DNA from: Saccharobesus litoralis
GTDB taxonomy: Bacteria > Pseudomonadota > Gammaproteobacteria > Enterobacterales > Alteromonadaceae
Direction: 5' to 3'
DNA: 64,000 nucleotides
NCBI RefSeq assembly: GCF_003063625.1
Contig: NZ_CP026604.1
Coordinates: 1,426,001-1,490,000 of the forward strand
Under the pieces are notes generated by a model, which saw only the letters and a list, made by a program, of their open reading frames with translations, was not told where the DNA came from and did no database searches. Both the position numbers and the translations under genes were made by a program. Positions 51,614 to 58,531 of the stretch are shown here, in pieces; position 1 is the first letter of the stretch; every line of letters starts with the position of its first letter.

Positions 51614-52720
51614 ATGAGTAAAAAAACCTCTTTCGACATTACAGTCTTACCTGGCGATGGCATTGGTGTAGAAATTACGCCAGTGTGTATCGAACTAATT
51701 GAAAAAGTGCTAACTAAGCTAGATGCCGATGTCAGTATAAACTTCACCACGTTTGAAGCTGGCGCAGCATACTATCAAAAAACGGGTATTTCCTTGCCTG
51801 AAGAAGCCTTAGCGCATGCGCAACAATCGGATGCTACCCTATTGGCTTGTATGGGCTTACCGAGTATACGTTATCCGGATGGTCGTGAAATTGCACCGCA
51901 ATTAGAACTGCGTGAAAAGTTGGATTTATATGCCGGTGTACGCCCAGTTAAAACCATGCCGGGTTTACCGCTGCCTTTGGCCGATGAACGTGGCAGTCAA
52001 CTCGATTTTGTGATGATCCGCGAAAGTACCGAGGGTTTATTTTCGTCCCGCGAGAGCTTTAGAATTGAAGGACAAGGTCAAGATGAAGCGGCTTATGATA
52101 CGCAAAAAATCAGTCGTCGCGGTTGTGAACGCTTATTTAACTTTGCGTTCAAAATGGCTGAACAACGCAAACAAAAAGGTAAGCAAGGATTAGTGACCTG
52201 TATCGACAAAGCGAATGTGTTGGGTTCCTTTTATTATATGCGCCAAGTGTTTGATGAAGTCGCACAACACTACCCACATTTAGAAGCAGATCATATATAT
52301 GTTGATGCCTGTGCATTACAGTTAGTGCGTCAACCTTGGGCTTATGATGTCATGGTCACTGAGAACATGTTTGGCGATATTCTCTCGGATTTATGTGCCG
52401 GCCTAATGGGTGGTATGGGCATGGCACCATCGGGTGACATTGGTGAAAACAGCGCGGTATTTCAACCTTGTCATGGCAGTGCACCGGATATTATTGGCCA
52501 AGGCAAAGCTAACCCAACCGCCATGTTTTTATCAGCGGCACTGATGTTGGAATGGTTAGGCTATCAACATCAAAACCAAGCAATGTTAGACGCAGCCAAT
52601 AAAATTAATCAAGTGGTAGAAGCCGCGTACGCAACAGGCGATTTATTGCCTTATGAGTTAGGTGGCAGTGATGGCACCGTTGCGATTAGCTCCAAAGTAT
52701 TTGCTATGTTGGAACAATAA
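51614..52720 (+). CDS. Isocitrate/isopropylmalate dehydrogenase-family enzyme, tartrate/tetronate-like
   Basis: A 368-residue cytoplasmic NAD(P)-dependent beta-decarboxylating dehydrogenase. Family marks: ITVLPGDGIGVEITP, LELREKLDLYAGVRPVK (substrate-arginine region), DFVMIRESTEGLF, VTCIDKANVLGSF (catalytic Lys), TENMFGDILSDLCAGLMGG (metal Asp) and PCHGSAPDIIGQGKANPTAM. Leucine genes are absent, so a role in 3-isopropylmalate metabolism is unlikely. In this setting it probably oxidises and perhaps decarboxylates a hydroxy acid such as tartrate, malate or a tetronate. GAGA ahead of the start; 48 bases after the GntR gene, in one operon with tctCBA. Confidence 0.85.
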   Translation: MSKKTSFDITVLPGDGIGVEITPVCIELIEKVLTKLDADVSINFTTFEAGAAYYQKTGISLPEEALAHAQQSDATLLACMGLPSIRYPDGREIAPQLELREKLDLYAGVRPVKTMPGLPLPLADERGSQLDFVMIRESTEGLFSSRESFRIEGQGQDEAAYDTQKISRRGCERLFNFAFKMAEQRKQKGKQGLVTCIDKANVLGSFYYMRQVFDEVAQHYPHLEADHIYVDACALQLVRQPWAYDVMVTENMFGDILSDLCAGLMGGMGMAPSGDIGENSAVFQPCHGSAPDIIGQGKANPTAMFLSAALMLEWLGYQHQNQAMLDAANKINQVVEAAYATGDLLPYELGGSDGTVAISSKVFAMLEQ

Positions 52721-52736
52721 GCTTAAGGAAGGCGAT

Positions 52737-53756
52737 ATGACTCGTTTAATACCAGCTTTAGTGATATTCACCAGTTTGCTCAGTATTTGTTTACCGACAC
52801 ACGCTGCAAAAAAATATCCTTATCGGCCGATTACGAATACTGTGGTGTGGGGTGCCGGTGGTGGCACAGACTCGATAAACCGCATGATCATGGCTGAAAT
52901 GGAAAAAGAGTTAGGCGTTAAGGTACGCGTGGCCAATAAAACCGGTGGTATTGCCGGTTCAATTGGCATGAAGTACGTTCACAGCAAACGCCCAGATGGC
53001 TATAACTTGGTTGGAATTTCAGAGTCAAATGTTACCTCTTCGGTTAATGGCGGGTGGAATAAGCGTTTTGATCAATGGTGGCCGTTTATTGTTGGCGGTT
53101 CACCCGATATTATTTCAGTGGCGGCCAATTCGCCTTATACCGATTTAAAACAGCTAATTGAAGCATCTAAAGCTAACCCTAAAACCATTAAAGTGGCTGC
53201 GGGTGATATTGGCTCTATTCATCATTTAAATATGTTGGCTTTAGTTAAAGGTACAGGCGCCAGCTTTAAGTTTATTCCTTACCCTGGCTCGGCTAAATCG
53301 CAAACGGCGGTACTGACTGGCGAAGTGGATATTGTGATCACTTCCGTGGCTGAACAAGCCGCGCTGATCCGTGGTAAAAAATTAAAACCACTTGCCACAT
53401 TAACCCCATCTGCGTTCAGTGGCGATAACATTCCTATCATTGTTTCGGCTTTGTCTATTTACCCAACCTTGCATGAGCATTTACCTATTAAACAAGCTAT
53501 AGGGTTTGCGGTGCACGCCCAAGCTTCACCTTCTACTAAATTGATATTAGGCGCAGCGTTTGAAAAAGCCATGCAGTCAGATAAGGTGAAATCGTGGGCC
53601 AAACAAAATTATTATCAATTATCCGGTAAGCATGGCTTACAAGCGAAAATTGAGTTTTCCCGTTTAGAGTCGCTGTTTGCTTGGACCTTGTATGATTTAG
53701 GGGCGGTGAACATTTCGCCGCAAGTATTTGGTATTGATAAACCTAAACTGCAATGA
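52737..53756 (+). CDS. Tripartite tricarboxylate-type transporter binding protein, TctC-like
   Basis: A 339-residue periplasmic protein; the start at 52737 follows AAGGAAGG and gives the signal LVIFTSLLSICLPTHA (the frame opens earlier, inside the dehydrogenase gene). TctC pattern: TVVWGAGGGTDSINRMIMAEM, KTGGIAGSIGMKYVHSKRPDGYNL, PGSAKSQTAVLTGEVDIVI. It binds a carboxylated substrate for TctBA. Overlaps tctB by four bases (ATGA). The context suggests a four-carbon or six-carbon acid sugar. Confidence 0.93.
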   Translation: MTRLIPALVIFTSLLSICLPTHAAKKYPYRPITNTVVWGAGGGTDSINRMIMAEMEKELGVKVRVANKTGGIAGSIGMKYVHSKRPDGYNLVGISESNVTSSVNGGWNKRFDQWWPFIVGGSPDIISVAANSPYTDLKQLIEASKANPKTIKVAAGDIGSIHHLNMLALVKGTGASFKFIPYPGSAKSQTAVLTGEVDIVITSVAEQAALIRGKKLKPLATLTPSAFSGDNIPIIVSALSIYPTLHEHLPIKQAIGFAVHAQASPSTKLILGAAFEKAMQSDKVKSWAKQNYYQLSGKHGLQAKIEFSRLESLFAWTLYDLGAVNISPQVFGIDKPKLQ

Positions 53757-54520
53757 GCCAATTAATGTTACGTCGAGCCGATTTGCGCATTGCTCTAGTT
53801 TTACTACTGGTTTGTCTGGCGCTTATTGTTGAAACCTTATCTTATCCCATGACTGGGGATTATGCGGGCGTGGAGAGTAAGTGGTATGTTTCGCCCGCAT
53901 TATTTCCCTTGATATTGTTGATATTACTGAGTTTGGCTTGTGTATTTGTGTTGCAAAATGCCCTGCGCAATGGTGGTGCTCAGCAATTGTTTAAGGTCAG
54001 CTCTTGGCTTGGTCAGCTCGATGATAAAGTCAATCTTGATCGTTGGTATGTCATTGGCTTGTTGTCGGCTTATGTGTACGTTTATATACCGTCTTTTGAT
54101 TTTTATTTAGCGACTAGTCTATTTTTATTGTCGGCTTGTTATCGCTTTTACTTTAAGCATGCCAGCCTCGCTTGGGTTAGCTTATTTAACCTAGCGGTGG
54201 TCAGTAGTGTTTTGTTATTACGCGGCTTTTACGCTGAGTCTTTTTATTTACTCAGTACTGAGCTTGCTAGTGACGAGGCGCTGATTGCAATAACAGATGG
54301 TGTGATCTTATTCGAGGTATTGGCTTTTATGACTTGGGTTGTGGTTAGTCAGCGACAAGCCGCTAAGCAACTGGCTTATTTAATTCTCACCTGTTTTGTG
54401 ATGCCGCTGGTTTTGATCATTATCTTTCAATTTTTGTTGTATGTACCTATGCCGGTAGAGTATGGCGTTATTAATCAAATGCTTGAAACCCTTTGGTATG
54501 TCAAATTAGGGTGGCAGTAG
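53753..54520 (+). CDS. TTT transporter small permease, TctB-like
   Basis: A 255-residue inner-membrane protein, longer than the usual ~150-residue TctB. It has the four expected helices (IALVLLLVCLALIVETLSYPM; WYVSPALFPLILLILLSLACV; a pair in 95-145) plus extra C-terminal helices (TDGVILFEVLAFMTWVVV and LILTCFVMPLVLIIIFQFLLYV). TctB proteins assist the large permease and have weak sequence conservation, so identity rests partly on its place between tctC and tctA. Confidence 0.85.
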   Translation: MSQLMLRRADLRIALVLLLVCLALIVETLSYPMTGDYAGVESKWYVSPALFPLILLILLSLACVFVLQNALRNGGAQQLFKVSSWLGQLDDKVNLDRWYVIGLLSAYVYVYIPSFDFYLATSLFLLSACYRFYFKHASLAWVSLFNLAVVSSVLLLRGFYAESFYLLSTELASDEALIAITDGVILFEVLAFMTWVVVSQRQAAKQLAYLILTCFVMPLVLIIIFQFLLYVPMPVEYGVINQMLETLWYVKLGWQ

Positions 54521-54527
54521 TCGAGCT

Positions 54528-56069
54528 ATGTTTGAACAGTTTAGTCACTTTTTTCAAATTTTATTTACCCTATGTACGGATCCCAGCAATTTAGCCGTGT
54601 TGTTTGGTGCCAGCATCATGGGGATTATCTTTGGCTCTATGCCGGGTTTAACCGCCACCTTGGGGGTGGCTTTGTTAACATCTTTAACCTATCAGTTTGA
54701 TACCAGCACCGCATTGATCGCCCTGTTGGGTTTATATGTTGGGGCGATTTATGGTGGGTCTTATCCCGCTATTTTGCTAAATATTCCAGGAACACCGGCA
54801 GCGGCCGCCACCGCGATGGACGGCCACCCTATGGCTAAACGTGGGGAAGGGGGCCGAGCATTAGGCTTAACGACCACTGCATCCATGATCGGCACCATTA
54901 TTGGTTTATTGTTTTTGGTGATCCTTGCTCCGGTTATTGCCACGCTAGCTTTGCAATTTACGTCGTGGGAGTTCTTCTTGCTGGCGCTGTTCGGTATTTT
55001 AATTAGCGGGACCTTGGCCAGTAGCGATATGGTGGTTAAAGGCTGGATAGCGGGTCTTATCGGTTTATTTCTCGCTACAGTCGGACGGGATGCCTTGCAG
55101 TTTTACCCGCGTTATACTTTTGAATCGAGCTTTTTAGATAGTGGCTTAGAAATTGTGCCTGTGCTGATCGCCGCGTTTGGGATTCCGCAAATTATTCGAG
55201 TTCTGTCGGAAAGACAAAACCTCGCGAGTAATATGCAATTTGGCCGAGTATTGCCGGAATTATCTACCTTAGTGCGTAATGCTAAACACATATTTCGCTC
55301 TGCTTGTATTGGTGTTGGGATTGGCTCAGTACCTGGTGTTGGCGAAGATATTGCCGGTTGGGTTTCTTACAGCACCGCTAAAAACACCTCCAAGCCGGAG
55401 GAGCAAGCTAAATTCGGTAAAGGCAGTGAAACCGCGATTGTCTCGTCAGAAACCGCTAATAATGCCTGTATTGGTGGAGCATTGATCCCATTACTGAGTT
55501 TAGGGATCCCAGGTAGCCCTCCGGCTGCAATGTTGTTAGGCGCCTTATTGTTGCATGGCGTTGTGCCCGGCCCGACGATTGAAGTGGATCACCCTGGCTT
55601 TTTACTCGAAGTGACCGCGATCATGATTATGGCTTCTTTTGCCATGTGGGCCAATGGCATGTTACTCGCTAAGCAAGTGGTTAAACTATTATATGTGCCT
55701 ACGCCGTTATTTATGCCCTTGATTGCCGTGCTGTGTATTTTAGGCTCGTACTCATTAGGGCTGAACTTGTTTAATTTGTATATCATGATCCCAATAGGCA
55801 TTGCGGCTTATGTATTAGGTGAATATAAGTTTCCTATCTCGCCATTAGTGATTGGTCTGGTGTTAGGGGGAATGGCAGATGAAAGCTTACGTCGCGCGCT
55901 TATGTTGTCCGACGGCAGCTTTTTGCCTATGTTACAGCGCCCTGTTGCTTTGTTATTGTTAGTGGTCATTGTTTATTTTGTCTTGGCGCAAATTCCTGCC
56001 GCCAAACGAGCGATGCGGCGTTTAAACCCTTTTATTAAAACCAATAAGTCGTTGACGACGGTAAATTAA
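54528..56069 (+). CDS. TTT transporter large permease, TctA-like
   Basis: A 513-residue inner-membrane protein with about 12 helices. TctA motifs are clear: ASIMGIIFGSMPGLTATLGV, IYGGSYPAILLNIPGTPAAAATAMDG, the second half-repeat VGIGSVPGVGEDIAGWVSY, and LIPLLSLGIPGSPPAAMLLGAL. It moves the substrate delivered by TctC, driven by ion gradients. Seven bases after tctB. Its stop codon is part of a 15-bp inverted repeat that pairs with the next gene's ribosome site. Confidence 0.95.
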   Translation: MFEQFSHFFQILFTLCTDPSNLAVLFGASIMGIIFGSMPGLTATLGVALLTSLTYQFDTSTALIALLGLYVGAIYGGSYPAILLNIPGTPAAAATAMDGHPMAKRGEGGRALGLTTTASMIGTIIGLLFLVILAPVIATLALQFTSWEFFLLALFGILISGTLASSDMVVKGWIAGLIGLFLATVGRDALQFYPRYTFESSFLDSGLEIVPVLIAAFGIPQIIRVLSERQNLASNMQFGRVLPELSTLVRNAKHIFRSACIGVGIGSVPGVGEDIAGWVSYSTAKNTSKPEEQAKFGKGSETAIVSSETANNACIGGALIPLLSLGIPGSPPAAMLLGALLLHGVVPGPTIEVDHPGFLLEVTAIMIMASFAMWANGMLLAKQVVKLLYVPTPLFMPLIAVLCILGSYSLGLNLFNLYIMIPIGIAAYVLGEYKFPISPLVIGLVLGGMADESLRRALMLSDGSFLPMLQRPVALLLLVVIVYFVLAQIPAAKRAMRRLNPFIKTNKSLTTVN

Positions 56070-56296
56070 CCTCAACTCTGGATAATAAATCCGTTTCTGG
56101 AGGCTCTTTGAACCAATTACTGCGTTAAGTTTACTTGCAATAGGCTAGCTATTGACGCGTAAACTTGCCTTGTTCTTGGCCCAAATTTCTCTCCAGAAAT
56201 AAAAAGGAACTATTGTTGGGTATCACAACTTGTTAACTAGCTGAAATTAATGATAAAAAATAATATCGTCGCAATTCTTAACCAGAGTTGAGGTTA
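56067..56296. repeat. 15-bp inverted repeat enclosing nested palindromes between tctA and the Gfo/Idh gene
   Basis: TAACCTCAACTCTGG (56067-56081) is the exact reverse complement of CCAGAGTTGAGGTTA (56282-56296). Inside lie TTTCTGGAG/CTCCAGAAA (56094-56102, 56191-56199) and a tight hairpin AAGTTTAC-CAATAG-CTATTG-GTAAACTT (56127-56166). The left arm covers the tctA stop codon; the right arm contains the GAGG ribosome site of the next gene. It could be a small transposable element or a folded mRNA switch. Confidence 0.7.
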
Positions 56297-56301
56297 GTAA
56301 A

Positions 56302-57339
56302 ATGAACGAACACAGTAAAAAGTTACGCGTAGTTGGCGTTGGTGCCGGATATTTTAGCCAGTTTCATTATGATGCATGGGCGCGATTAGATAACGTGGAA
56401 TTAGTCGCCGTTGTCGATTTAGATCACAGCAAGGCGCAGGCCATTGCTGACAAATATCAAATCCCACTGGCCAGTGATAACTTAGCCGCGACGTTACGCG
56501 ATATTAAACCTGACTTGTTGGATGTGATAACCCCTCCGGCGAGTCATCAAGCAGCTATCAGTTTAGCCGCCGAGTTAGGCATTAACTGTGTTTGTCAAAA
56601 ACCCTTTGGTGAAAACCTTGAGCAAGCGCAGCACATGGTAACGCTTGCGCAGCAAGCGAATATTGATTTAATTGTGCACGAAAATTTTCGTTTTATGCCT
56701 TGGTTTCGCCAAGTTAAGCAAATTATTGAGTCTGGCCAATTGGGCGAGATATTTAACGCGCAATTTTATTTACGCCCTGGTGATGGCCAAGGCAAAGATG
56801 CTTATCTTGCCCGCCAACCTTATTTTCAAACCATGGACAAATTTTTAGTACACGAAACGGCTATCCATATCGTGGATACTTTTCGTTATTTGTTTGGCGA
56901 AGTGAAATCGCTGTATGCCAATCTTAAGCAACGTAACCCTGTGCTCAAAGGTGAAGATGCCGGCACTATTATTTTTGACATGCATAATGGGGTTGAAGCT
57001 GTGTTTAACGGTAATCGCCTGCTGGATCACGCGGCAACGAATAAACGCAGAACCATGGGCGAAATGTTAATTGAAGGCAGTAAAGCGTGTTTAAGGTTAG
57101 ATGGTGAGGCGCGATTATGGCTACGTCCGTTCGATCAGTTACAAGCCGAGCCAATCGCTTATCAGTGGCAAGATAAAAACTTTGGTGGTGATTGCGTATT
57201 TCAACTTTGCCAGCATATTGCTCAGCATTATTTATCTAATCAGGCGTTAGAAAACAGTGCCGCGCAATACCTACGTAATATTGAAATTGAAAATGCGATT
57301 TATCAGTCTAATAGCTTGCGCGCCGCAGTTGATATATAG
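56302..57339 (+). CDS. Gfo/Idh/MocA-family oxidoreductase
   Basis: A 345-residue cytoplasmic NAD(P)-dependent sugar (acid) dehydrogenase. The N-terminal Rossmann domain has VGVGAGYFSQFHYDAWARL and LDVITPPASHQAAIS. The usual EKP motif reads CQKPFGENL, with Gln for Glu but the functional Lys kept. The C-terminal domain has HETAIHIVDTFRYLFGE, with the His/Asp pattern of the active site. GAGG lies nine bases ahead within an inverted repeat. It follows the Tct transporter and precedes the SMP-30 lactonase, a common pair for oxidising an aldose or uronate to a lactone and opening it. The substrate is not determinable. Confidence 0.9.
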   Translation: MNEHSKKLRVVGVGAGYFSQFHYDAWARLDNVELVAVVDLDHSKAQAIADKYQIPLASDNLAATLRDIKPDLLDVITPPASHQAAISLAAELGINCVCQKPFGENLEQAQHMVTLAQQANIDLIVHENFRFMPWFRQVKQIIESGQLGEIFNAQFYLRPGDGQGKDAYLARQPYFQTMDKFLVHETAIHIVDTFRYLFGEVKSLYANLKQRNPVLKGEDAGTIIFDMHNGVEAVFNGNRLLDHAATNKRRTMGEMLIEGSKACLRLDGEARLWLRPFDQLQAEPIAYQWQDKNFGGDCVFQLCQHIAQHYLSNQALENSAAQYLRNIEIENAIYQSNSLRAAVDI

Positions 57340-57379
57340 ACTAGTGCTGTTTTCAGAAAGAAATGATCAGTTGAATCTT

Positions 57380-57442
57380 TTGTAGGTCGAAGCTGCTGCT
57401 TCGTCAAAAGCTTTAAATACGACGCAAGCGTCGAACCTACAA
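57380..57442. repeat. Paired TGTAGG-type hairpins
   Basis: TTGTAGGTCGAAGCTGCTGC with TTCGTC after it, then GACGCAAGCGTCGAACCTAC: two members of the cap-conserved, stem-variable family facing each other around an AAAGCTTTAAAT centre. They lie in the 217-base gap before the SMP-30 gene. Confidence 0.65.
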
Positions 57443-57556
57443 AAATAGCTAGCATTGTTTCAACTAATCAAAATTAAATTGAAAACGCACTAGACACAAC
57501 ATGCCAATGACTAACATACAGCCCGACTAAAACCAAGACTAAAAATAAGAGAACAT

Positions 57557-58531
57557 ATGAGTTATAGCATTGACGATATTGCTTTTACAGCCGAGCATTT
57601 AGTGCGTCCAGAATGTGTTTTGGCGACACGCGCTGGTCATTTATATGTCGCGGATTTTCGCGGCGGCGTTAGCCATATCACACCAACAGGCGAACAATAC
57701 TTTTATGGCGGTGGCGATGTTGCCGGCTATGGTCAACTTAAACCTAACGGTATAGCCTTATTGGCTGATGGTAGTTTTTTAGTTGCGCATTTGGGTGATG
57801 AAAAAGGCGGCGTGTTTCGAGTTTATCGTGATAATCGCATAGAGCCCTATGTTACCCATATTGCTGGTGAACATTTACCGCCAAGCAATTTCATTTATTT
57901 AGATAAACAAGGGCGACTCTGGCTGACTGTCAGTACTCGTCATACGCCGCGTGCGGCTGCCTATCGCTCTGATATAAAAGACGGTTTTATCGCTGTAATA
58001 GAAGACGGACAAGCTCGCATTGTCGCAGATAATATCGGCTACACTAACGAGGTTTTTGTTACGCCAGATGGTATGCAGCTTTATGTTAATGCAACCTTTA
58101 GCCGTGAATTGCTACGCTACGATATAACGGCTGATAACCAACTGGAAAATGCAAAAGTCATTAGCCAGTTTGAGGCTGGAGTTTATCCGGACGGTTTAAC
58201 AATGGATAGTCAAGGTTACTTATGGATTGTCAGTATAGTCAGCAATCGCCTGATCCGCTTAAATCCAGCAACCGGTCAATATCAAATTATGTTGCAAGAT
58301 GTTGATATCGACCACCTTAATTGGGTTGAACAAGCCTATCAACAACACGCCATGGGGCGTCCACATTTGGACCAAGTTAAAGCGAAACGCTTAAGCAATA
58401 TATCCTCATTAGCCTTTAGTGGAGAAAACTTATCTCGCATGGTCTTTGGCTGCTTACTTGGCGCTAAACTGGCTTATATAGATACCGAGTTTAGCGGGAT
58501 TGCCCCCGCGCATTGGCATTTTGACGATTAA
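57557..58531 (+). CDS. SMP-30/gluconolactonase-family lactonase
   Basis: A 324-residue six-bladed propeller protein without a signal peptide. The metal-binding residues are in the expected places: Glu19 (VRPECVLA), an Asn in KPNGIALL, NEVFVTPDGMQLYVN, and Asp in YPDGLTMDSQGYLWIV. Such enzymes open sugar lactones (gluconate, rhamnonate, arabinonate). AAGAGAAC lies ahead of the start. It stands after the Gfo/Idh gene, which could make the lactone. The next step, a dehydratase, is not obvious unless UxaA or an outside enzyme serves. Confidence 0.88.
   Translation: MSYSIDDIAFTAEHLVRPECVLATRAGHLYVADFRGGVSHITPTGEQYFYGGGDVAGYGQLKPNGIALLADGSFLVAHLGDEKGGVFRVYRDNRIEPYVTHIAGEHLPPSNFIYLDKQGRLWLTVSTRHTPRAAAYRSDIKDGFIAVIEDGQARIVADNIGYTNEVFVTPDGMQLYVNATFSRELLRYDITADNQLENAKVISQFEAGVYPDGLTMDSQGYLWIVSIVSNRLIRLNPATGQYQIMLQDVDIDHLNWVEQAYQQHAMGRPHLDQVKAKRLSNISSLAFSGENLSRMVFGCLLGAKLAYIDTEFSGIAPAHWHFDD

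Follow-up and report, generated by a model that had tools for sequence, protein, structure and literature searches.

A structured insert between tctA and a Gfo/Idh gene

The window analysed here is a 64,000-nucleotide (nt) stretch of the Saccharobesus litoralis genome (NZ_CP026604.1, positions 1,426,001 to 1,490,000; positions below count from its first letter), in which a 230-nt inverted-repeat element is placed exactly between a tctA-like permease gene and a Gfo/Idh-type oxidoreductase gene. The element supplies the TAA stop codon of tctA, and it carries a GAGG sequence 8 nt before the ATG at 56302 that opens the oxidoreductase gene (Table 1). The original prediction, made from the sequence alone, offered two accounts of this junction: an RNA switch acting on the oxidoreductase gene, or an inverted-repeat element of ~230 bp that brought its own ribosome-binding site. 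The 15-bp perfect inverted repeat that it described, joining the tctA stop region to GAGG, is present, with the terminal arms TAACCTCAACTCTGG (56067-56081) and CCAGAGTTGAGGTTA (56282-56296) complementary at 15/15 positions and sitting within a 27-nt arm pair that is 85% complementary. The two further nested palindromes that it placed inside are also there, as a 9-bp stem of TTTCTGGAG (56094-56102) with CTCCAGAAA (56191-56199; 9/9 paired) and an 8-bp stem of AAGTTTAC (56127-56134) with GTAAACTT (56159-56166; 8/8 paired).

RNA of 56055-56310 has a minimum free energy of -73 kcal/mol compared with -47.6 +/- 4.1 for shuffled sequences (z = -6.1), and 0 of 200 shuffles are as stable. No open reading frame (ORF) of at least 80 amino acids is listed within the window copy of the element, and a promoter scan of this copy gave nothing above chance. 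No rho-independent terminator was found inside the element, the two terminator-like sites detected both lying outside 56067-56296, and the Rfam covariance models gave no family match on 55800-56700 up to E = 5.

Table 1. Features of the element and its two flanking genes in the window
Feature	Position	Strand	Basis or remark
Whole element, TAACC...GGTTA	56067..56296	+	10 full copies in own genome; ends defined by the duplications of other copies and the empty site of another copy
Left terminal inverted repeat TAACCTCAACTCTGGATAA, includes the tctA stop TAA	56067..56085	+	Resembles ends of IS982-family insertion sequences
Right terminal inverted repeat, minus strand reads TAACCTCAACTCTGGTTAA	56278..56296	-	Resembles ends of IS982-family insertion sequences
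Internal structured core: outer stem TTTCTGGAG/CTCCAGAAA, inner stem AAGTTTAC/GTAAACTT, apical stem around CAATAG/CTATTG	56094..56199	+	Stems covary in two alignments of relatives
Variable region, from core to right end	56200..56265	+	Alignments
tctA-like permease gene, 513 amino acids; TAA stop (56067-56069) at element boundary	54528..56069	+	Name from the original prediction
GAGG in right terminal repeat, likely ribosome-binding site of the Gfo/Idh gene, spacing 8 nt	56290..56293	+	Sequence
Gfo/Idh-type oxidoreductase gene, 345 amino acids; start 5 nt past element	56302..57339	+	Name from the original prediction

Copies in the same genome and in related genera

The feature is a mobile element by origin, and its family is widespread and structured. 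A DNA search of its own genome (5.87 Mb, two contigs) gave 13 matches, comprising 10 full copies and three fragments. Six of the full copies, including the one in the window, are 228-231 bp long with 90-100% identity; the other four (280-294 bp) contain extra internal sequence. A covariance model of the element recovers the identical 10 full copies, all of which are flanked by TA. The search for other genomic copies at unrelated sites was the check that the original prediction had named, and its outcome (10 full copies here and copies in many related genera), together with the target duplications and element-free relatives described below, supports the second of the two accounts.

Beyond this genome, a DNA search of a family-level sample found a match in 64 of 295 genomes (23 of 52 genera), and the covariance model found one in 62 of 295 genomes (21 of 100 genera) of an order-level sample; both tallies count the own genome, the order-level tally also counts some genomes that supplied model sequences, and only two candidates per genome were scored in the family sample and eight in the order sample. 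The own genus is represented by one genome. In 12 genomes chosen among those with matches, the model finds 11-131 matches per genome. Nine plasmid records match, from Pseudoalteromonas (seven) and Catenovulum (two); there was no match among phage records or E. coli genomes. Lengths are 196-200 bp in 32 elements outside the own genome and 193-211 bp in 60 more, in a choice that favoured full-length copies; the elements were drawn from the best-scoring matches, with weak or truncated copies under-sampled. Terminal inverted repeats are common to the elements of relatives, and the alignments place the length difference in the variable region, which is ~30 bp longer in the own-genome copies than in the ~198-bp copies of other genera.

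Other arrangements were seen in passing. The extra sequence of the four 280-294 bp copies (L007-L010) has a palindrome near CCCTCCATGGATGGAGGG, giving size classes within one genome. In G112, whose places match a Catenovulum adriaticum plasmid record, terminal-repeat pairs in C1-C3 stand ~140, 154 and 240-247 bp apart end to end, which suggests several size classes. Two copies lie head to tail with 2 bp between them at G009:C2:358916-359311.

Target duplications and empty sites

A perfect 5-bp repeat lies outside ACC...GGTT in 25 of 42 elements (10 from the own genome, 29 from other genomes and three from plasmid records), and a perfect 5- or 6-bp repeat in 29; when the left and right flanks of different elements were paired as a control, 7.7% were perfect at 5 bp. 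A second set of 60 further elements gave 33 perfect at 5 bp and 35 at 5, 6 or 7 bp, with a control of 9.7% at 5 bp. Among 94 elements, 53 have a perfect 5-bp repeat, which in most of them reads ANNTA; a T comes before it in 52 cases and an A or G after it in 42, giving a target close to TANNTAR. The part that strictly moves is probably ACC...GGT(T), at ~56069-56294/5 in the window, and the outer TA on either flank is probably part of the target duplication. The TA flanking all 10 own-genome copies had raised the suspicion of a TA-only duplication of the IS630/mariner type, which the 5-6 bp duplications rule out. Among these ten copies the 5-bp duplication is perfect in three, matches at four of five positions in five, and is lower in two, the window copy and L003.

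Sites free of the element were found at two kinds of junction. Of 80 loci with a relative of the Gfo/Idh gene, 12 also hold a tctA relative, which is directly upstream in 11; these 11 junctions are without the element, and their stop-to-start distances of -8 to +43 nt are too short to hold one. With the element excised and one TA kept, the window reads ...GTAAAT-TAG-TAAAATG, which suggests that the tctA stop before insertion was TAG. An exact empty site is available for a copy in G276 (L039) that lies between two genes we take, from recognition of their proteins by eye, to be apaG and apaH. The filled site consists of ACATTAAATA, the element (ACC...GGTT) and AAATAATGGC, and a sister species, G587, which among those found has the apaH closest to that of G276 (84%), shows the exact TAAATA empty site ACATTAAATAATGGC at the junction. 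Across 26 genomes of the genus of G276, with 25 loci read, 21 have an apaG-apaH gap of 2-15 nt. The element accounts for one of the longer gaps (202 nt); the remaining three measure 77, 98 and 358 nt, and two of them contain a different palindrome whose ends are similar. Palindromic insertions of this kind, differing from the element, are present at the junction in two species besides G276 (L296 and L301).

Ends shared with IS982-family insertion sequences

Judged by sequence, the ends of the element are those of IS982-family insertion sequences (IS). The NCBIfam IS982 transposase model NF033520 has matches in 9 of 17 chosen genomes, 4 over the cut-off, and we scored a profile of the element ends around 7 of the 25 matches (six over the cut-off and L116). 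At these seven matches, in five genomes, the best scores are 22.9-31.5 bits, and the maximum in 80 control loci is 14.4. All seven have a high-scoring end on at least one side; both sides score highly in G185 (three copies) and G540, and one matching end is present in G366 (at a contig edge), G502 and G112. Over 990-991 bp the three G185 copies do not differ from one another, their ends are of the element's type, and the repeats AAATAA and AATTA lie outside the copies at two sites. The G540 IS also repeats the element's asymmetry, with one end continuing CTTAAGGAATTG and the other GGATAA. In G108, six matches that fall below the cut-off end in unrelated sequence. The IS982 IS gets a weak score from the covariance model, mostly at its ends, so the transposase gene is not a visible source of the core. 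From the shared ends we infer mobilisation in trans by an IS982 transposase.

Two other routes to a partner were set aside. Pairing of terminal repeats in G000 and G112 (20 regions scanned) gave wide pairs at L093, L102 and L109 that held ordinary genes and no transposases. The neighbourhood of L013 (G000:C1:5058939), a lone right end of the element, contained no partner transposase; an ORF adjoining it reads, as we recognised by eye, like a group II intron reverse transcriptase.

Position of the elements relative to genes

Positions were surveyed for 94 elements (10 from the own genome and the 31 and 53 of the alignments A2 and A4 described below), with genes and stop codons called by simple ORF rules and no gene finder. 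Ninety elements overlap no called ORF by more than 60 nt, and four do. For the 93 with both neighbours, the flanking genes are convergent in 33 cases, co-directional in 51 and divergent in nine, with no orientation bias relative to co-directional flanking genes (27 vs 24).

Element ends coincide with stop codons at three to four times the rate of control sites. Counting ORFs of 100 codons or more, 30 of 188 element ends fall on a stop; in 16 the element itself completes a TAA, and in 14 the stop is a TAA or TAG of the target immediately outside it. A stop is also present there in all 30 reconstructed empty sites, so none looks like a truncation. Among control TANNTA sites from non-coding parts of the same flanks, 39 of 909 fall on such stops (Fisher p = 9e-8, odds ratio 4.2), and with the stricter control TANNTAR 31 of 529 do (p = 6e-5, odds ratio 3.1); with the 16 element-completed ends removed, the comparison is 14/188 vs 21/909 (p = 0.001). 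These replace a first control (2.2%) that was biased, the last codons of genes having been excluded. The excess at stop codons may come from selection against harmful insertions and not from targeting. A start codon lies within 12 nt of eight ends, counting ORFs of 80 amino acids or more. Three elements, namely the window copy, L007 and the apaG-apaH copy, combine a stop at one end with a start at the opposite end.

Predicted coupling of tctA and the Gfo/Idh gene

The region around the window copy (51614-58531) resembles what we take, naming the genes by eye, to be a TctC-TctB-TctA type transporter cluster followed by the Gfo/Idh gene and an SMP-30-like gene. GAGG in the right terminal repeat presumably serves as the ribosome site of the Gfo/Idh gene. 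In the folded intact mRNA its probability of being unpaired is 0.0001, and this rises to 0.34 if 56055-56081 is kept unpaired, as it would be under a ribosome terminating on tctA. The predicted cost of opening the start region of the gene is 19.1 kcal/mol in the intact mRNA and 10.6 with a ribosome on the tctA stop, compared with 11.5 at the reconstructed empty junction and 4.3, 5.8, 12.1 and 16.6 at four other starts in the window. A shorter folded segment of the window copy behaves similarly, the cost changing from 16.7 to 10.6 and GAGG exposure from 0.0001 to 0.42. For the apaG-apaH copy (L277 in the folding) the cost goes from 18.5 to 10.7, with 7.0 at the empty site, and exposure rises slightly, from 0.0004 to 0.031; for L007 there is almost no gain (cost 11.0 to 10.6, exposure 0.14 to 0.17). 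Coupling is thus plausible for the window copy as modelled, and would be no rule of the family.

One alternative is that the insertion is neutral, its terminal stem and GAGG having no effect on expression of the tctA-Gfo/Idh pair, and we give this somewhat less than an even chance. The elements sit mostly in places where they are tolerated, outside ORFs by the 60-nt rule and between convergent genes far more often than divergent ones, and once a ribosome is present the start region costs about as much to open as at the empty junction. However, given the high cost predicted for the window copy when no ribosome is on the tctA stop, some effect would be expected.

A conserved fold inside the element

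The internal stems covary in two alignments. Alignment A2 contains 31 of the 32 elements outside the own genome (L025 was left out), and 94.2% of its paired cells are standard pairs, with 18 of 47 pairs changed on both sides; its covariation score is 0.202 compared with 0.089 when shuffled and at most 0.064 with the partner slid, figures that the structure, being partly derived from A2, favours. Alignment A4 was made without the structure and combines L021 with 53 of the 60 new elements, 46 of these 53 coming from other families of the order; L224, L230, L232, L242, L248, L254 and L275 were excluded by eye, being of odd length or additional copies from genomes already represented. It scores 0.287, compared with 0.119 shuffled and at most 0.096 slid, and has 258 doubly changed cells. 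Covariation of the terminal stem can be explained by both ends suiting one transposase, and that of the inner stems cannot.

Mismatches in the stems are asymmetric between strands. On the plus strand A-C exceeds G-T in the outer stem, counted by pair and genus (51 vs 24, p = 0.002) or by pair (11 vs 2, p = 0.02), and in the inner stems by pair and genus (42 vs 22, p = 0.017), with 13 vs 7 by pair (p = 0.26); these p-values ignore shared ancestry, and two inner pairs with majority T-G on the plus strand were set aside. Read on the minus strand, an A-C mismatch becomes G-U, and this lean in the sequences gives a weak hint of a minus-strand RNA.

One explanation of these data is that the core is a functional structured RNA hitch-hiking on IS982 ends and kept by selection on a transcript, possibly from the minus strand. 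The compensatory changes in both alignments, the narrow lengths (in a choice that favoured full-length copies) and the mild A-C excess would agree with it. We nevertheless consider it unlikely: the inner excess fades when counted by pair and two inner pairs lean the other way, the elements have no orientation bias, the window copy has no promoter above chance, and a hairpin needed in DNA for transposition would covary too. Such a DNA hairpin is an equal alternative for the covarying fold. A site for integration host factor was also considered as a component of the element, and its occurrence within one mismatch in 43 of 60 elements, compared with 20.5 in simple shuffles, is too weak to claim. 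Exact matches to the motif occur in 6 of 60 elements, compared with 1.5 in shuffles, and lie ~40 bases from the right end.

Origin and consequences of the insertion

We conclude with high confidence that the feature is a non-autonomous miniature inverted-repeat transposable element (MITE) with IS982-family ends, for which an IS982 transposase acting in trans is the most likely mover and whose terminal stem may couple the flanking genes. Like other MITEs it is short, multicopy and without a transposase gene, and has terminal inverted repeats and, at the level of the family, target-site duplications. Most likely, an IS982 transposase supplied in trans inserted the element at a TANNTA target, duplicating 5-6 bp, when the tctA stop was still TAG. 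Both reading frames stay intact, since the terminal repeat forms a TAA stop at the tctA side and provides GAGG, facing outward, at the Gfo/Idh side. The 15-bp terminal stem would hide GAGG until a ribosome terminating on tctA opened the left arm and exposed it, and tctA and the Gfo/Idh gene could thereby stay translationally coupled across the 230-nt insert.

Several observations weigh against parts of this account. The window copy itself has no clear target duplication (3/5 matching), and its own insertion event is deduced from the behaviour of the family. NF033520 has no match in the own genome, which thus yielded no IS982 mover. The IS982 IS does not account for the interior of the element. 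In A4, helix 2 is paired in just 67.9% of cells, and when the consensus is folded freely the core and terminal stems are recovered but helices 2-4 are not. The coupling step, which derives from folding predictions, appears clearly in the window copy, slightly in L277 and not at all in L007 among the three junction copies folded.

A wider version of the MITE account would make this an order-wide IS982-borne family with a selected structured nucleic-acid domain, adapted to operon junctions by an inward TAA stop and an outward AGG ribosome site at each end, with a terminal stem that keeps split genes coupled and does not silence them; we regard this as improbable, somewhat more so than a functional core RNA. 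An RNA switch dedicated to the oxidoreductase gene, having evolved for it as an attenuator or riboswitch-like leader, could draw on the very stable fold and on the GAGG buried in the stem and freed in silico by a ribosome on tctA, but as an origin it is largely refuted and very unlikely, given the nine other full-length places in the own genome and many in other genera, the 11 relatives with the tctA-Gfo/Idh pair and no element, and the absence of an Rfam match. The first account of the original prediction therefore fails as to origin, because the fold is a property of the element and is found at unrelated sites as well; what stands is that folding predicts GAGG to be locked unless a ribosome is on the tctA stop, and a switch is possible at most as a side effect of the element.

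If the coupling is true, it shows how a parasitic DNA element can enter tight operons without breaking them, by carrying its own stop codon and ribosome site together with a stem connecting the two. The family is abundant, with up to 131 matches in one of the 12 chosen genomes, and has a named candidate partner transposase, so that both its mobility and its effects on operons become testable.

Comparison with known repeat families

The ends, length and mobiliser of ERIC repeats differ from those of the element. In lifestyle, ERIC repeats and Correia elements come nearest to it. ERIC repeats are like the element in being short, multicopy, mostly intergenic and common to related families, in other hosts, and at the 3' end of Yersinia genes they can change mRNA levels (PMC10969869). 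The Correia elements of Neisseria, likened here by description, have terminal inverted repeats that act in mRNA and are cut by RNase III (PMC10969869). Correia elements carry promoters, whereas the window copy has none above chance. Pneumococcal BOX, RUP and SPRITE repeats are structured and interspersed like the element, again by description, and BOX repeats encode the stop codon of 36 annotated pneumococcal genes, a role comparable to that at tctA; unlike the element, BOX is modular and has other hosts (PMC3049150). No description of the element family was found in the literature searched; the Shewanella SonMITE_1, named in PMC10969869, may be the same family.

A further likeness in description is to MITECca01, an IS982-derived MITE of the Cardinium endosymbiont of Oedothorax gibbosus, which is ~240 bp long, lacks a transposase and has inverted repeats very similar to those of the IS982-family ISCca4 (PMC9769881). 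MITECca01 is described as specific to its endosymbiont lineage (PMC9769881), whereas the element described here spans many genera of a gammaproteobacterial order and has a covarying core.

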